From Streptomyces lunaelactis (GTDB taxonomy: Bacteria > Actinomycetota > Actinomycetes > Streptomycetales > Streptomycetaceae), in assembly GCF_003054555.1 (NCBI RefSeq), contig NZ_CP026304.1, positions 6,014,001 through 6,078,000 on the forward strand: a stretch of DNA of 64,000 nucleotides, in the 5' to 3' direction. Shown piece after piece: positions 37,574 through 43,253 of the stretch. Each line of letters opens with the position of its first letter. Position 1 is the stretch's first letter. A program made the position numbers and the translations under genes. The notes below the pieces were generated by a model. The model was not told the origin of the DNA, searched no databases, and worked only from the letters and a program-made list of their open reading frames with translations.

Positions 37574-38989
37574 TCAGGAGACAGCCACCTCGGGCTCGGG
37601 CTCCCGCGTCTGCGACGTGCGCGCGTCGAGGGCCAGGCTGCTCAGGCCGCCCACCAGCCCCGACAGGACGAAGCTGCAGTCCACCCCGCCCGTCAGTGAC
37701 AGCAGCGGGCCCTCGTACAGTGGGGTCGATACCGCGCACAGGCCCACCGCCGCGCCCAGCGCCCAGCCGGCCGTTGCGCGGGGGTGCCAGCCGGCGCGGA
37801 ACCAGTAGATGCCGCCCTTGGCGCGGCGGTTGTAGACCTGGAGCGCCTGCGCGTCGTACTCCCCGCCGCACCGGACATGCCCGATCAGCGTGATCACCGC
37901 CCACGGCGTGCCGATCGCCGTCAGCAGCAGCACGAACGACGTCATCGCGGACTGCGCGTCCCACGCGAAATGGCCGAGGAAGACGAACGCCGTCGCGACC
38001 ACGGCCACCACCATCGTGGCCCGCGCCCGCGTCGTCCGCGGCAGGATCGCGTCCAGGTCCAGGCCCATCGAGTACAGCATCAGGCCCGCGTTGCCGATCG
38101 ATCCCGCCGTCGCCGCCAGCAGCAGCGGGACCAGGTACCAGGCCGGTGACGCGGCAACCAGCGGGCCGGCGTAGTCGAGCGAGGCGCGGGCCGCCAGCCC
38201 CGTGTACGTACCGAAGAGCTGCGGGATCAGCAGACCCACCACGAGGCCCAGACACGTCGCGCGCAGTACCCGCCGCGGGCTGTGCCGCAGCGGCGAGATG
38301 TAGCGGGTGTAGTCCCCGAGCAGGGTGATGAACGCGATCGGGCCGCTCAGCCCCGCCGCCACCGCGGACAGCAGCCACGTGGGCCAGAAGGAGCCGAGGA
38401 GGTACGGGGTGTCCGGCGGAGCGGCCGCGGTGAGGTCGGGGGCGTACGCGATCAGGCCCAGCAGCAGCAGCGCCGTCATGCCGACCGCGAGGACTTTGCT
38501 CAGCCGGAGCAGCAGCCGGTAGCCGTACACCGCGCCGATCACCGTGCACGCCGCCAGCAGCGCGTAGACCAGGCCGTGCGCCGCCCCGCCCGTCGGCAGC
38601 CCGGCGATCCGCGCCAGCGTGCCGACCATCACGTCCCCGCCGATCCACAGCGTCAGCGCGGTGTAGCCGAGCGAGAGCAGCAGGCCGACGACCGAGCCGA
38701 CGAGCCGCCCCCGTACCCCGAACGCGGCGCCGCTCGACGTCGACAGATTCGTCGCGGTGCGCAGCGAGATCAGCGCGAGCGGCGCGGTGACGGCCACGCC
38801 GACGACCGTTCCGGCGACGATCGAGGTGACGGCCGGCCACAGGCCGAGACCGAAGGAGACCGGAAGCCAGCCGAAGACGATGACGCCCAGGCACAGGTTC
38901 GACCCCAGCAGGATCGAGATGAGATCTCGCGGAGTACTGGTGCGCTCCGCGTCCGGGATGGTGTCGACTCCGCGCTGTTCTATCGGCAT
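37574..38989 (-). CDS. NCS1-family nucleobase/ureide permease
   Basis: This 471-residue integral membrane protein has about 12 helices and belongs to the nucleobase:cation symporter-1 family, which takes up cytosine, purines, hydantoins or allantoin. Family features are the N-terminal LGSNLCLGVIVFGWL, SGAAFGVRGRL, and FITLLGDYTRYI in the middle. It starts at ATG 38989 and is divergent from the urease-like operon, sharing a 151-base control region with it. That context suggests a ureide or related nitrogen compound as substrate. This is an inference; residues that set specificity cannot be read with confidence. Confidence 0.9.
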   Translation of the reverse strand: MPIEQRGVDTIPDAERTSTPRDLISILLGSNLCLGVIVFGWLPVSFGLGLWPAVTSIVAGTVVGVAVTAPLALISLRTATNLSTSSGAAFGVRGRLVGSVVGLLLSLGYTALTLWIGGDVMVGTLARIAGLPTGGAAHGLVYALLAACTVIGAVYGYRLLLRLSKVLAVGMTALLLLGLIAYAPDLTAAAPPDTPYLLGSFWPTWLLSAVAAGLSGPIAFITLLGDYTRYISPLRHSPRRVLRATCLGLVVGLLIPQLFGTYTGLAARASLDYAGPLVAASPAWYLVPLLLAATAGSIGNAGLMLYSMGLDLDAILPRTTRARATMVVAVVATAFVFLGHFAWDAQSAMTSFVLLLTAIGTPWAVITLIGHVRCGGEYDAQALQVYNRRAKGGIYWFRAGWHPRATAGWALGAAVGLCAVSTPLYEGPLLSLTGGVDCSFVLSGLVGGLSSLALDARTSQTREPEPEVAVS

Positions 38990-39038
38990 GAGGGCGCCCC
39001 TGACGCTCGACTGTTCGAGTGACCGTGTGAGTAACTCT

Positions 39039-39053
39039 TTGAGTGCCGCTCAA
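39039..39053. promoter_or_regulatory. Operator candidate 1 in the permease/urease-like control region
   Basis: TTGAGTGCCGCTCAA is an inverted repeat with 5-base arms and a 5-base spacer. A related sequence, TTAGAGTGTCGTTCAA, lies at 39107-39122 on the other strand's sense, and CTCGA-CTGT-TCGAG lies at 39006-39019. The TetR protein of the cluster is a plausible binder. Confidence 0.5.
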
Positions 39054-39106
39054 TGTGACGGAGGCACTGCTCGTACGTCAATGCTTCCGTGAAAAGAAAC
39101 TCAAGG

Positions 39107-39122
39107 TTAGAGTGTCGTTCAA
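39107..39122. promoter_or_regulatory. Operator candidate 2 in the permease/urease-like control region
   Basis: On the minus strand this reads TTGAACGACACTCTAA, similar to box 1 in the pattern TTGA-N6-CTC. It lies 19 bases before the start of the fused urease gene, where a repressor would block transcription. Confidence 0.4.
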
Positions 39123-39140
39123 ACAGGGAGGTGTGGTGAC

Positions 39141-39827
39141 GTGCGACTGACCCCGACCGAGCGCGACCGGCTGCTGCTCTTCGGCGCCGCCGAACTGGCG
39201 CGGGCCCGCCGGGCACGCGGCCTCAGGCTCAATGTCCCCGAGGCGACCGCGCTCATCGCGGACACCGTCTGCGAGGCGGCCCGCGACGGCAGACGGCTCG
39301 CGGAGGCGATCGAGGCGGCCCGCAGTGTGCTCGGCCCCGACGATGTGCTGCCCGGTGTGGCGGATGTGGTCACCGAGGTCCATGTGGAGGCCGTTTTTGA
39401 CGACGGGTCACGGCTCGCCGTGGTCTCGCAGCCCATCGGCGGCAGCGGACTGGGCGACGGTGCCCCCGGAGCCGTACTCCCCGCCCAGCCGCACGCCGAC
39501 CCCGAGCCGGTCCTCACACTCACCGTGCGCAACACCGCCGCCGTCCCCGTCAGCGTCACCTCGCACTTCCACTTCTTCGAGGCGAACCCGCGTCTCGACT
39601 TCGACCGCGCCGCGGCGTACGGCATGCGGCTCTGCGTCCCCGCCGGGTCCTCCGTCCGCTTCGACCCGGGCGGCCGGGCCGAGGTCGGCCTGCTGCCCAT
39701 CGGCGGCGACCGGATCGCCATCGGCTTCGCCGGCCTCGTCGACGGCCCGCTGGACGGGCCCGGCGCGAAGGAGGAGGCCCTGCGGCGCGCTGCGGCCTGC
39801 GGCTATCTGGGAACCGAGGACGCCTGA
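39141..39827 (+). CDS. Fused urease gamma-beta subunit homologue
   Basis: This 228-residue protein joins a urease gamma domain (about 1-100; MRLTPTERDRLLLFGAAELA, LRLNVPEATALIADTVCEAA) to a beta domain (about 105-225; LTVRNTAAVPVSVTSHFHFFEANPRLDFDR). Both are complete. The start is GTG 39141 with GGGAGG about 8 bases upstream. Its stop overlaps the ATG of the alpha subunit as TGATG. Fused gamma-beta forms are known in some ureases, but the partner alpha subunit here is atypical. See the findings for the cluster. Confidence 0.92.
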   Translation: MRLTPTERDRLLLFGAAELARARRARGLRLNVPEATALIADTVCEAARDGRRLAEAIEAARSVLGPDDVLPGVADVVTEVHVEAVFDDGSRLAVVSQPIGGSGLGDGAPGAVLPAQPHADPEPVLTLTVRNTAAVPVSVTSHFHFFEANPRLDFDRAAAYGMRLCVPAGSSVRFDPGGRAEVGLLPIGGDRIAIGFAGLVDGPLDGPGAKEEALRRAAACGYLGTEDA

Positions 39828-41509
39828 TGGACCCCTACGAGTACGCATCGGTGCACGGCCCGCGCGCAGGCGACCGGGTCGTCCTCGGCGACTCCGGGCT
39901 CGTCGTCCGCGTCGAGTCGGACGCGCAGAAGCCGGGTGAGGAGTTCCTCGCCGGCTTCGGCAAGACCGCGCGCGACGGGCTGCATCTCAAGGCCGCCGCC
40001 GTGCGCGAGACCTGCGATGTCGTCATCAGCAACGTGCTTGTCATCGACGCCGTCCAGGGCATCCGCAAGGTGTCGGTCGGCATTCGTGAAGGCCGGATCC
40101 ACGCCATCGGAAGGGCCGGCAACCCGGACACCCTCGACGGTGTCGACGTCGTCGTCGGTACGGGCACGAGCATCGTCTCCGGCGAGGGCCTGATCGCCAC
40201 CGCCGGCGCCGTCGACACCCACGTCCATCTGCTCTCGCCGCGCGTCATGGAGGCCTCGCTCGCCTCCGGCGTCACCACCGTCATCGGCCAGGAGTTCGGC
40301 CCGGTGTGGGGGGTCGGGGTCAACTCGCCCTGGGCGCTGCGCCACGCCTTCAACGCCTTCGACGCCTGGCCCGTCAACATCGGCTTCCTGGCGCGCGGCT
40401 CCTCCTCCGACGCCGCGCCCCTCGTCGAGGCGCTCGCCGAGGGCGGCGCGTCCGGCTTCAAGGTGCACGAGGACATGGGCGCGCACACCCGCGCGCTGGA
40501 CACCGCGCTGCGTGTCGCCGAGGAGCACGACGTACAGGTCGCCCTGCACAGCGACGGCCTGAACGAATGCCTGTCGGTCGAGGACACCCTGGGGGTCCTG
40601 GACGGCCGTACGATCCACGCCTTCCACATCGAGGGCTGCGGCGGCGGACACGTACCGAACGTGCTCAAGATGGCGGGCGTGGCGAACGTCATCGGCTCCT
40701 CGACCAACCCGACCCTGCCCTTCGGCCGGGACGCGGTCGCCGAGCACTACGGGATGATCGTCTCCGTACACGACCTCAAGACCGACCTGCCCGGCGACGC
40801 CGCCATGGCCCGCGACCGGATCAGGGCCGGGACGATGGGCGCCGAGGACGTGCTGCACGACCTCGGCGTGATCGGGATCACCTCCTCGGACGCGCAGGGG
40901 ATGGGGCGCGCGGGCGAGACCGTACGCCGCACCTTCGCCATGGCCGGGAAGATGAAGGCCGAGCTCGGCCCGATGGAGGGCGACGGCGCGAACGACGACA
41001 ACGCGCGCGTACTGCGCTATGTGGCCAAGCTGACGATCAACCCCGCGATCGCGCACGGTCTCGCGCACGAGATCGGCTCCATCGAGGTGGGCAAGCTCGC
41101 CGACATCGTGCTGTGGCGGCCGCAGTTCTTCGGGGCGAAGCCGCAGCTCGTACTGAAGTCGGGCTTCCCGGCGTACGGGGTGACGGGCGACCCCAATGCC
41201 GCCACCGACACCTGCGAACCGCTCGTCCTGGGACCGCAGTTCGGGTCGTACGGCGCCACCCCCGCGGACATCTCGGTCGCCTTCGTTGCCAAGGCCGCGA
41301 CCGAGCTGGGCTCCGACCACATGCCCACGCGCCGCCGCCGGGTCGCCGTACGCGGCACGCGCGGCATCGGCCCGGCCGATCTGCGGCTCAACTCCCGGAT
41401 CGGCGCGGTGGGGGTGGACGGCCGCAGCGGCCTGGTCACCCTCGACGGCGACCCGGTCCGCTCCGAGCCCGCCGACTCCGTCTCCCTCAACCGCCTCTAC
41501 TTCCTGTAG
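39827..41509 (+). CDS. Non-canonical urease alpha subunit (nickel amidohydrolase family)
   Basis: This 560-residue enzyme resembles UreC. The metal ligands are all present: His132 and His134 (DTHVH), the carbamylated Lys212 (GFKVHED) and His214, His241 (ALHSD), His267 (AFHIEG) and Asp355 (SSDAQ). The active-site flap cysteine of true ureases (VCHH, Cys319 in Klebsiella) is replaced by Val314 in IVSVHDL; His315 is kept. The conserved loop GTGPAxGTxATTCTPGPW of true ureases is about five residues shorter and reads FGPVWGVGVNSPW. No accessory ureDEFG genes are in the window. The substrate may not be urea. Confidence 0.9.
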   Translation: MDPYEYASVHGPRAGDRVVLGDSGLVVRVESDAQKPGEEFLAGFGKTARDGLHLKAAAVRETCDVVISNVLVIDAVQGIRKVSVGIREGRIHAIGRAGNPDTLDGVDVVVGTGTSIVSGEGLIATAGAVDTHVHLLSPRVMEASLASGVTTVIGQEFGPVWGVGVNSPWALRHAFNAFDAWPVNIGFLARGSSSDAAPLVEALAEGGASGFKVHEDMGAHTRALDTALRVAEEHDVQVALHSDGLNECLSVEDTLGVLDGRTIHAFHIEGCGGGHVPNVLKMAGVANVIGSSTNPTLPFGRDAVAEHYGMIVSVHDLKTDLPGDAAMARDRIRAGTMGAEDVLHDLGVIGITSSDAQGMGRAGETVRRTFAMAGKMKAELGPMEGDGANDDNARVLRYVAKLTINPAIAHGLAHEIGSIEVGKLADIVLWRPQFFGAKPQLVLKSGFPAYGVTGDPNAATDTCEPLVLGPQFGSYGATPADISVAFVAKAATELGSDHMPTRRRRVAVRGTRGIGPADLRLNSRIGAVGVDGRSGLVTLDGDPVRSEPADSVSLNRLYFL

Positions 41510-41534
41510 ACAACACAGCCTCTAGGGATCCCTG

Positions 41535-42554
41535 ATGACCTTCCGCATGCCGCCCGAGTGGGCCCCGCACGAGCGCACCTGGATGGCCTGGCCGGGCCCC
41601 AATGTCACCTTCTCCGGCGAGGACCTCGCCGGGTCCCGCCGTGCCTGGGCGTCCGTCGCCCGGGCCGTACGCCGCTTCGAGCCGGTCACCATGGTCGTGG
41701 GCCCGGGCCAGTCGGATGGCGCCCGCACCCTCCTCGGCCCGGACATCGACCTCGTCGAGCGCGAGCTGGACGACGCCTGGATGCGCGACATCGGCCCGAC
41801 CTTTGTCACCAACGGGGACCGACTGGCCGCCGTGGACTGGGTGTTCAACGGCTGGGGTGCGCAGGAGTGGGCCAGCTGGGAGCACGACTCGAAGGTCGCC
41901 CGCCATGTCGCGGACCTCACCGGAGTGCCCGTCCACAGCTCGCCGCTGGTCAACGAGGGCGGCGGCATCCACGTCGACGGCGAGGGCACGGTCCTGCTCA
42001 CGGAGACCGTGCAGCTCGGCCCCGAGCGCAACCCGGGCTGGACGAAGGAGGAGGTCGAGGCCGAGATCCACGCCAAGCTCGGCACGACCAAGGCGATCTG
42101 GCTGAAGCGCGGCCTCACCGCCGACTACCCGCCGCACGGCTTCGGCACGCTCGGCCATGTCGACATCGTCGCGGCCTTCGCGGGCCCCGGCGTCGTAGTC
42201 GCCCACACCCAGCCGGACCCGGCCCACCCCGACCACGAGCTCTGCGAGGAGAACGTGGAGATGCTGAGGCTCCAGACCGACGCGCGGGGCAGCCGCCTCG
42301 ACGTCGTGGAGGTGCCTGCGCCGACGGTCGTACGGGAGGAGGGCCACGGCTGGGTCGACTACTCGTACATCAACCACTACGTCTGCAACGGCGGCGTGGT
42401 GCTGTGCGGTTTCGACGACCCGCGCGACGAGGTCGCGGCGGGAATCTTCCGCCGGCTCTACCCCGGCCGTACGGTCACGCTGGTCGACGCCCGGACGATC
42501 TTCGCGGGCGGCGGCGGCATCCACTGCATCACCCAGCAGCAGCCGAAGGTCTGA
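41535..42554 (+). CDS. aguA: Agmatine deiminase
   Basis: This 339-residue guanidino-modifying enzyme converts agmatine to N-carbamoylputrescine and ammonia. Family motifs are MPPEWAPHERTWMAWPG, DDAWMRDIGPTF, LVNEGGGIHVDGEGT and HVDIVAAF. The nucleophile is Cys331 in GGGIHCITQQQP. The ATG at 41535 is 26 bases after the urease-like stop, so it is probably in the same operon. Its product is a mono-substituted urea, and the urease-like enzyme upstream could act on it. Related peptidylarginine-type deiminases are possible alternatives. Confidence 0.93.
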   Translation: MTFRMPPEWAPHERTWMAWPGPNVTFSGEDLAGSRRAWASVARAVRRFEPVTMVVGPGQSDGARTLLGPDIDLVERELDDAWMRDIGPTFVTNGDRLAAVDWVFNGWGAQEWASWEHDSKVARHVADLTGVPVHSSPLVNEGGGIHVDGEGTVLLTETVQLGPERNPGWTKEEVEAEIHAKLGTTKAIWLKRGLTADYPPHGFGTLGHVDIVAAFAGPGVVVAHTQPDPAHPDHELCEENVEMLRLQTDARGSRLDVVEVPAPTVVREEGHGWVDYSYINHYVCNGGVVLCGFDDPRDEVAAGIFRRLYPGRTVTLVDARTIFAGGGGIHCITQQQPKV

Positions 42555-42594
42555 CAGCCCTTCGGCGACGAGCGAGATCAGGTAGAACATACGG

Positions 42595-42633
42595 GTGAAC
42601 GAGTTCCTGTGCGTACCGGTGGCTGCCGTATGA
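42595..42633 (+). CDS. Possible 12-residue leader peptide overlapping the TetR start
   Basis: The frame GTG 42595 to TGA 42631-42633 encodes MNEFLCVPVAAV. Its stop overlaps the TetR ATG at 42630 as ATGA. A TAGAAC box ends 6 bases before the GTG, so it could be leaderless and translationally coupled. It may also be chance. Confidence 0.3.
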   Translation: MNEFLCVPVAAV

Positions 42634-43253
42634 CGCCCGCCCCGCGCCGCCGCAACGTCGCGCCGCCCCGGGAGTCCGTGCTCGTCGCCGCGATGGCCAC
42701 CATCGCCGAGCGCGGGCTCGACGGGCTCACCATGGCCGGGCTCGGGCGCGAGGTCGGGATGAGCAGTGGGCATCTCCTCTACTACTTCCGCACCAAGGAC
42801 GAGCTCCTCCTGCAGACCCTCGAGTGGAGCGAGGGCCGTCTCGGCGCCGCGCGCAGCGCCCTGCTCTCGCGGCAGGCGCCGGTGGCCGAGCGGCTCGACG
42901 CGTACGTCGAGCTGTACGTCCCCGACGGGCCCCGCGACCCCCACTGGACGCTCTGGCTCGAGGTCTGGAACCGTTCGCAGAGCGCCGACGCCGACGCGCG
43001 TGCCCGGCAGGCGGCGATCGAGGGGGCCTGGCACAGGGACCTCGTCGCACTGCTCGCCGAAGGGATCTCGCGCGGCGAGTTCCGCGCGGTCGACCCCGAC
43101 CGCTTCGCCGCGCGGCTGCGGGCGCTGCTCGACGGCTTCAGCGTCCATGTCGCGGTGGGCATACCGGGCACGGGCCGCGCCCAAGTCCTGACCCACGTCC
43201 GCGATTTCCTCGACGACGCGCTGCTCCCCGAAACAAGCCCCGCCGGCGATTGA
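42630..43253 (+). CDS. TetR-family transcriptional regulator
   Basis: This 207-residue TetR protein has an N-terminal helix-turn-helix (about 15-60: RESVLVAAMATIAERGLDGLTM, VGMSSGHLLYYFRTKDELLLQTL) and a C-terminal ligand-binding domain with WTLWLEVWNRSQ. An in-frame GTG lies at 42609. The last residues (TSPAGD) and the stop codon come from a copy of the dispersed intergenic repeat, so the natural end of the protein has been replaced. It lies downstream of the urease-like/agmatine deiminase operon and probably represses it. Confidence 0.9.
   Translation: MTPAPRRRNVAPPRESVLVAAMATIAERGLDGLTMAGLGREVGMSSGHLLYYFRTKDELLLQTLEWSEGRLGAARSALLSRQAPVAERLDAYVELYVPDGPRDPHWTLWLEVWNRSQSADADARARQAAIEGAWHRDLVALLAEGISRGEFRAVDPDRFAARLRALLDGFSVHVAVGIPGTGRAQVLTHVRDFLDDALLPETSPAGD

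Follow-up and report, generated by a model that had tools for sequence, protein, structure and literature searches.

Textbooks present urease as an enzyme whose substrate is urea. What, then, does a urease-like enzyme do in Streptomyces lunaelactis when its genes lie directly upstream of a gene of the agmatine deiminase family (AguA)? The locus lies in the window, by which we mean the whole analyzed stretch of 64,000 nucleotides (contig NZ_CP026304.1, positions 6,014,001 to 6,078,000). It consists of an NCS1 permease, a fused urease gamma-beta subunit (UreAB), a urease-like alpha subunit, here called UreC2, AguA and a TetR-type regulator. A preliminary description of this DNA had grouped these five genes, had seen neither urease accessory genes nor the N-carbamoylputrescine amidase AguB among them, and had proposed that the urease-like enzyme replaces AguB. 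We found all five genes where that description had placed them and no accessory domain in these or the three flanking genes scanned. Comparative genomics also supported a replacement of AguB, both through linkage to the deiminase and through the distribution of AguB (0/57 genomes with UreC2 versus 28/56 deiminase genomes without it). In our reading UreAB-UreC2 probably carries out the step otherwise assigned to AguB or to the amidase AguY, in which N-carbamoylputrescine yields putrescine, CO2 and NH3. This reading is based on gene content, conservation, the exclusion of other partners, changes in the pocket and the many hosts in which no UreG was found.

According to this proposal, the operon would serve the use of agmatine or a very similar guanidino-amine. 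The NCS1 permease would import the substrate, AguA would deiminate agmatine to N-carbamoylputrescine and NH3, and UreAB-UreC2 would hydrolyze this mono-substituted urea at a dinuclear metal center, releasing putrescine, CO2 and a second NH3. The TetR protein would control both transcripts through two palindromes. Substrate, transport, regulator target and metal of the system are all deduced from sequence.

The cluster is not a product of chance, because UreAB, UreC2 and AguA occur together in all 22 UreC2 loci (the window and 21 in relatives); the same conservation rules out a local oddity. These loci belong to 20 of 41 genomes (the window genome and 40 relatives, with genomes, loci and families labeled G, L and f below), in which UreC2 is at least 78% identical; the remaining full-length UreC proteins of the 41 are only 44–49% identical to it. 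The order LeuB-IlvE-NCS1-UreAB-UreC-AguA-TetR-CimA is identical in Streptomyces althioticus (L201). NCS1 and TetR are not constant among the 22 loci, and AguA lies ∼1 kb away in L036 and upstream in L051.

We then considered a class sample of 394 genomes. A UreC2 threshold of E 1e-160 gave 58 genomes, from which G328 was removed (49% identical, with the canonical Gly-Gly-Gly motif and an adjoining UreG-type GTPase), leaving 57 with identities of at least 53%. A deiminase adjoins UreC2 in all 29 loci of 28 Streptomyces genomes. When every type of deiminase-family gene is counted (E 1e-30), 49 of the 57 genomes with UreC2 have one, versus 56 of the 337 others. Among named genomes, the fetched flank held a deiminase in 66 of 80 loci and AguB in none (best 80 of 232 candidates). 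Both the conservation of the neighbors and the co-occurrence of the urease-like gene with aguA, which the preliminary description had put forward as checks, were thus borne out.

The distribution of AguB carries the argument further. AguB was defined as the relatives of the nitrilase adjoining AguA in G031, with that protein as the query (E 1e-45), because the AguB family model failed to separate AguB from other nitrilases; the nearest Protein Data Bank entry to this type is the N-carbamoylputrescine amidohydrolase 5h8i. Among the 41 genomes AguB occurs in seven: one of the 20 with UreC2 (G012) and six of the eight with a deiminase and no UreC2. The other two of these eight are G015 and G018, the single deiminase of the latter being nearest to an exported type. 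In the class sample AguB was found in none of the 57 UreC2 genomes, including the 49 with a deiminase, and in none of 63 genomes comprising 56 with UreC2 and seven Streptomyces with neither. Where a deiminase occurs and UreC2 does not, AguB turned up in half of the genomes (28/56), and in 24 of these it adjoins the deiminase. The contrast of 0/49 with 28/56 gives a Fisher p of 4e-10, which is not corrected for kinship. In the window genome no protein passes the AguB model, the best being a nitrilase at 263 bits against a cut-off of 410. Beyond the cluster, a dedicated AguB, which could have accounted for agmatine use, was found neither elsewhere in the window genome nor in any of the 57 UreC2 genomes; the distant 263-bit nitrilase remains. 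That nitrilase (L100 8043-14206, G000:C1 near 7080000) has another NCS1 permease and an Amidohydro_1 protein close by; the locus is perhaps concerned with pyrimidine or hydantoin breakdown.

A third kind of partner occurs in the remaining 28 deiminase genomes that have neither UreC2 nor AguB. In 19 of them an amidase of ∼570 aa adjoins AguA, with PF01425 confirmed in the four that were scanned. These amidases match the description of AguY in PMC12283126, and we call them AguY-like. None of the 19 fetched AguY-like loci is a UreC2 locus, the UreC2 genomes not having been searched genome-wide for AguY, and no PF01425 amidase domain was found in the window genes scanned. On a quick tree of 103 AguA rows (50 with UreABC, 13 with AguB and 3 more with AguB elsewhere in the genome, 19 with AguY), the partner changes at least eight times, and each row has at most one kind of adjacent partner.

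What looks from sequence comparison to be the clearest partner swap is an operon that encodes, together with AguA, additional deiminases and an oligopeptide-type ABC transporter. It holds UreABC in G004, G181 and G370, AguB in G027, G029, G030, G031 and G037 (genus g3), and neither in G015. The AguA proteins of the g3 AguB operons are 66–71% identical to the UreABC-linked AguA of G012, and their solute-binding proteins are 60–65% identical to that of G004. Absence of UreABC is seen as well: G005 and G378 lack it at the leuB-ilvE site, G077 has no UreC2 in its genome, and all three carry AguB elsewhere.

The UreC2 protein itself forms a separate clade and has what appears to be a changed substrate pocket. 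The preliminary description had called the alpha subunit atypical; in agreement, it scores 630.8 bits against the TIGR01792 urease cut-off of 680 and passes the broader subfamily model NF009686 (734 versus 354). We aligned 59 clade rows with 15 canonical rows (14 genes, since L021 and L054 are the same gene). Gln155 is present in 59/59 clade rows and Glu156 in 58/59 (one Asp), where all 15 canonical rows have Gly-Gly. Cys271 and Gly358 are each present in 59/59, where the canonical rows have Ala at both positions. The clade also has a 4-column deletion in a pocket loop, and the flap Cys is gone from 57 of the 59 rows, being retained in L149 and L156 alone. The metal ligands His132, His134, Lys212, His241, His267 and Asp355 and the general-acid residue His315 are retained in every clade row. 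We assume that these ligands correspond to those of the Klebsiella urease and that the changes map to Klebsiella Gly157-158, the Ala167 loop, Cys319 and Ala363, around the urea site. Gln155 and Glu156 would then sit in the substrate pocket, with Glu156 predicted to bind the distal ammonium of N-carbamoylputrescine. Compared with urease, UreC2 thus shares the domains, the fused gamma-beta subunit, the metal ligands and the general-acid His; it differs in forming a separate clade, in Gln-Glu for Gly-Gly, in a loop shorter by 4, in Ala to Gly at 358, in the loss of most flap Cys residues, in an alpha score below the urease cut-off and in a cluster in which no accessory gene was seen.

Maturation may set the enzyme apart as well. 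A search for UreG (E 1e-20) came up empty in 23 of the 57 UreC2 genomes; these include G127 (a Streptomyces in five contigs, 100% complete) and each of the five genomes whose AguA exceeds the TIGR03380 cut-off. Because so many hosts have no detected UreG, UreC2 probably does not depend on it, and a metal other than nickel in UreC2 is possible. The linkage to the deiminase, the exclusion of AguB, the partner swaps and the hosts in which UreG was not found are together the grounds on which we suggest that UreABC2 performs the AguB/AguY step.

Several observations weigh against this reading. The window AguA stays below the TIGR03380 cut-off. Outside Streptomyces, the fetched flanks of 29 UreC2 loci held a deiminase in 12 and none in 17, some contigs ending early, and eight of the 57 UreC2 genomes had no deiminase match at E 1e-30; the clade may for this reason have other ureido compounds as substrates. 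In families f26, f36 and others, UreABC is combined with an Amidohydro_3 protein, partly with a Pot-like transporter, and no AguA lies nearby. For nine of the 56 genomes that have a deiminase and lack UreC2 we found no partner (G085, G114, G145, G165, G346, G360, G394, G426 and G430); the deiminase of G145, G360 and G394 is nearest the exported type, that of G085 is very divergent, and G114 is 73% complete. G012 carries both UreC2 and AguB. G015 has two AguA and, as far as was found, no UreC2 or AguB, AguY not having been searched there genome-wide. The changes in G005, G077 and G378 may be a single event, since the three form one clade. Nitrilases of ∼260 bits in these genomes could have some AguB-like activity. 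Finally, a kinship-aware contrast gave 11 independent pairs, usually with 4–6 opposite and none alike, and a borderline median p of 0.06; an earlier test on 61 rows gave a median p of 0.125 and had too little power.

Part of this evidence would suit a pathway in which UreC2 hydrolyzes the N-carbamoyl product of the deiminase, and which starts from a compound other than agmatine, such as a different guanidino-amine or a guanidino-acid that enters through NCS1. We consider this unlikely. It draws on the score of the window AguA (294.6 bits versus 381.8), on the nucleobases, thiamine and allantoin for which the NCS1 family (PF02133) is described, and on those UreC2 loci whose flank holds an Amidohydro_3 protein instead of a deiminase. 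The preliminary description had named the gene an agmatine deiminase; its family assignment (PF04371) stands, and its score stays below that of the equivalog model. The protein nonetheless aligns with the solved Arabidopsis agmatine iminohydrolase, including conserved residues, and some other AguA proteins near UreABC do exceed the cut-off. Such relatives near UreABC reach 517–552 bits, and in the class sample AguA is above the cut-off in 5 of 394 genomes, all five with UreC2. In G342, G389 and G065 such an AguA is encoded on the strand opposite UreC2, at a distance of 0.5–2.1 kb, and this orientation weighs against our main reading; in G404 the two genes are at the ends of separate contigs, and in G081 AguA is on another contig. 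The AguA proteins beside AguY-like amidases are 53–62% identical to the window AguA (8 loci, called apart), and an actinomycete AguY was shown to convert N-carbamoylputrescine (PMC12283126). PotD/PotA-like genes also stand beside AguA and UreABC in four loci, from three Kribbella and one Tetrasphaera metagenome-assembled genome. In L202, the one of these four that was scanned, the ATPase is barely above the polyamine model TIGR01187, and the binding protein and AguA are below their cut-offs.

An ordinary second urease that acts on urea and receives its metal in trans with the help of accessory proteins from the canonical urease operon is, in our judgment, improbable. UreC2 does retain every metal ligand and shares 41–49% identity with canonical ureases, and the window genome offers UreD and UreG at two other urease loci, the only places where they were found (UreE and UreF were not searched). 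SCO5525-5526 are also placed among urea-utilizing genes in PMC3293853, and PMC5489568 includes ure(AB)C in its functional urease clusters. Such an enzyme is difficult to reconcile with the UreC2 genomes in which UreG was not found (23/57) and with the alteration, throughout the clade, of pocket positions that are invariant in the 15 canonical rows. Urea as the substrate also fails to explain why AguB and AguY are excluded beside AguA. That UreAB-UreC2 is a relic or a non-catalytic protein traveling with AguA is very improbable: UreABC2 is absent from G005, G015, G077 and G378 although the same AguA is present, and the flap Cys is missing from 57/59 rows, but the metal-binding His, Lys and Asp and the general-acid His are kept in all clade rows, and three of those four genomes have AguB elsewhere.

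We return to the reading in which UreAB-UreC2 acts on N-carbamoylputrescine and to the genes around it. The preliminary description had suggested that the NCS1 permease imports a ureide. The permease is indeed part of the cluster and stands at the same place in most, not all, loci of the leuB-ilvE site. An NCS1 permease also occurs beside AguA-AguY pairs in four loci; the two such permeases that were compared are 48–49% identical to the NCS1 of G002, whose cluster is NCS1-AguA-UreAB-UreC. The permease in the window shares no more than 28% identity with those of the AguA-AguY loci and of G002. Because NCS1 seems to follow AguA and not the second enzyme, import of the AguA substrate is more likely than import of a ureide, and we amend the suggestion to that extent. 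In L040 (7153-8113, G017) NCS1 matches only as several short pieces and looks broken or poorly sequenced.

The divergent promoter between NCS1 and ureAB is 151 bp long and carries two palindromes of the form TTAGAGTGnnGCTCTAA. These two are the only matches in the window with at most one mismatch, where 0.01 are expected. One to three palindromes per locus were found in all 21 other scanned leuB-ilvE-site loci with UreABC, a variant occurs once in each of the six f19 loci (L131-L136), and the palindrome is also present in L093 (G015), a locus without ureABC. The same scan found none in L032, L036, L161, L051 or four f3 loci. TetR may bind both palindromes, in which case the permease and the operon would form one regulon. 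On either side of the cluster lie ilvE and a cimA/leuA-like gene. The ureAB and ureC genes overlap, and gaps of 25 bp and 54 bp separate ureC from aguA and aguA from tetR (with start codons taken from the gene listing). The coordinates are collected in the table.

Table. Features of the UreAB-UreC2-AguA locus in the window
Feature	Position	Strand	Evidence or remark
NCS1-family permease	37574..38989	-	PF02133, 302 bits, E 1e-89; divergent from operon
Operator-like palindrome 1, TTTGAGTGCCGCTCAAT	39038..39054		Motif search of 64-kb window
Operator-like palindrome 2, TTAGAGTGTCGTTCAAA	39107..39123		69 bp from palindrome 1, just upstream of ureAB
UreAB, fused urease gamma-beta	39141..39827	+	PF00547, PF00699; NF009671 317 bits versus cut-off 243
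UreC2, urease-like alpha, candidate N-carbamoylputrescine hydrolase	39827..41509	+	PF00449, PF01979; below TIGR01792 cut-off; clade-specific pocket residues
Gln155-Glu156 codons of UreC2	40289..40294	+	Replace Gly-Gly of canonical ureases
AguA, agmatine deiminase family	41535..42554	+	PF04371, 362 bits, E 3e-108
TetR/BetI-type regulator, final operon gene	42609..43253	+	PF00440, PF13977

Other loci gave further observations. The window genome has a third urease alpha (L053 8908-11458, G000:C1 near 449600), 44% identical to UreC2, with a fused gamma-beta subunit and adjoining UreG/UreD. A match to Rfam RF02514 (5_ureB_sRNA) at window positions 40102-40242 on the minus strand, antisense within ureC, is barely above the gathering score; we set this candidate antisense RNA aside as likely coding homology to Helicobacter ureB. 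Amidohydro_3 proteins stand near UreABC2 without AguA in L142 (10669-16755, with a Pot-like transporter), L199 (7707-9326) and L150 (6634-8247). In AguA-less UreABC2 loci this protein may serve as first enzyme in place of AguA; such loci point either to a different enzyme that supplies the ureido compound or to more than one substrate for the clade. Among the deiminase paralogues in L032, L036, L087, L092 and L161, several have apparent export signals by eye, and in most of these loci they lie beside an oligopeptide-type ABC transporter; extracellular deimination of agmatine or of peptidyl-arginine is a possible role for the exported type. L166 (G370) is a hybrid in which a window-like leuB-ilvE-NCS1-ureABC segment is joined to AguA_b, a solute-binding protein and an exported-type deiminase of the operon with the oligopeptide-type transporter.

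Among known systems, the UreA2B2 iron urease of Helicobacter mustelae is a second urease that is not known to have accessory genes of its own, and it hydrolyzes urea. The AguA-AguB pathway uses AguA of the same groups, and UreABC occupies the place of AguB in some loci; AguB is, however, a carbon-nitrogen hydrolase of the nitrilase type (PF00795), whereas UreC2 has urease and amidohydrolase domains only. In the AguA-AguY system, as described in PMC12283126, a nonhomologous replacement of AguB was likewise first inferred from adjacency to aguA, with actinomycetes among the hosts, and in some loci of our sample NCS1 and TetR stand beside the AguY-like gene. By contrast, AguY is an amidase of ∼570 aa proven by enzymology (same source), and the role of UreC2 comes from comparison. 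The putrescine transcarbamylase route shares the intermediate (same source) and uses a different reaction. The word "urease" occurs 0 times in the main text of PMC12283126, and our literature search, covering titles and the openings of abstracts, found no proposal of a urease-like enzyme for N-carbamoylputrescine and no link of one to agmatine. Clusters of ure(AB)C only were recorded for S. coelicolor (SCO5526) and S. avermitilis in a 2008 study (PMC2492869), and papers on urea use and biomineralization count the UreC2-type pair with urease (PMC3293853 and PMC5489568).

We tentatively go one step further, with confidence just short of calling it probable: UreAB-UreC2 may be a further, metal-dependent solution to N-carbamoylputrescine hydrolysis, with a substituted urea as natural substrate and a metal center that is assembled without UreG and perhaps without nickel, and the wider clade, in which Amidohydro_3 or polyamine-transporter partners stand in for AguA, may consist of ureido-amine hydrolases named as urease. 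If the proposed function is correct, many actinomycete genomes would carry a mislabeled enzyme that completes agmatine breakdown, and one more unrelated enzyme would be added to those that convert N-carbamoylputrescine to putrescine. It would show how the urease pocket can open to larger ureas, and the hosts with no detectable UreG would offer a urease-fold metal center that matures without the usual machinery. The reading is directly testable in Streptomyces coelicolor.

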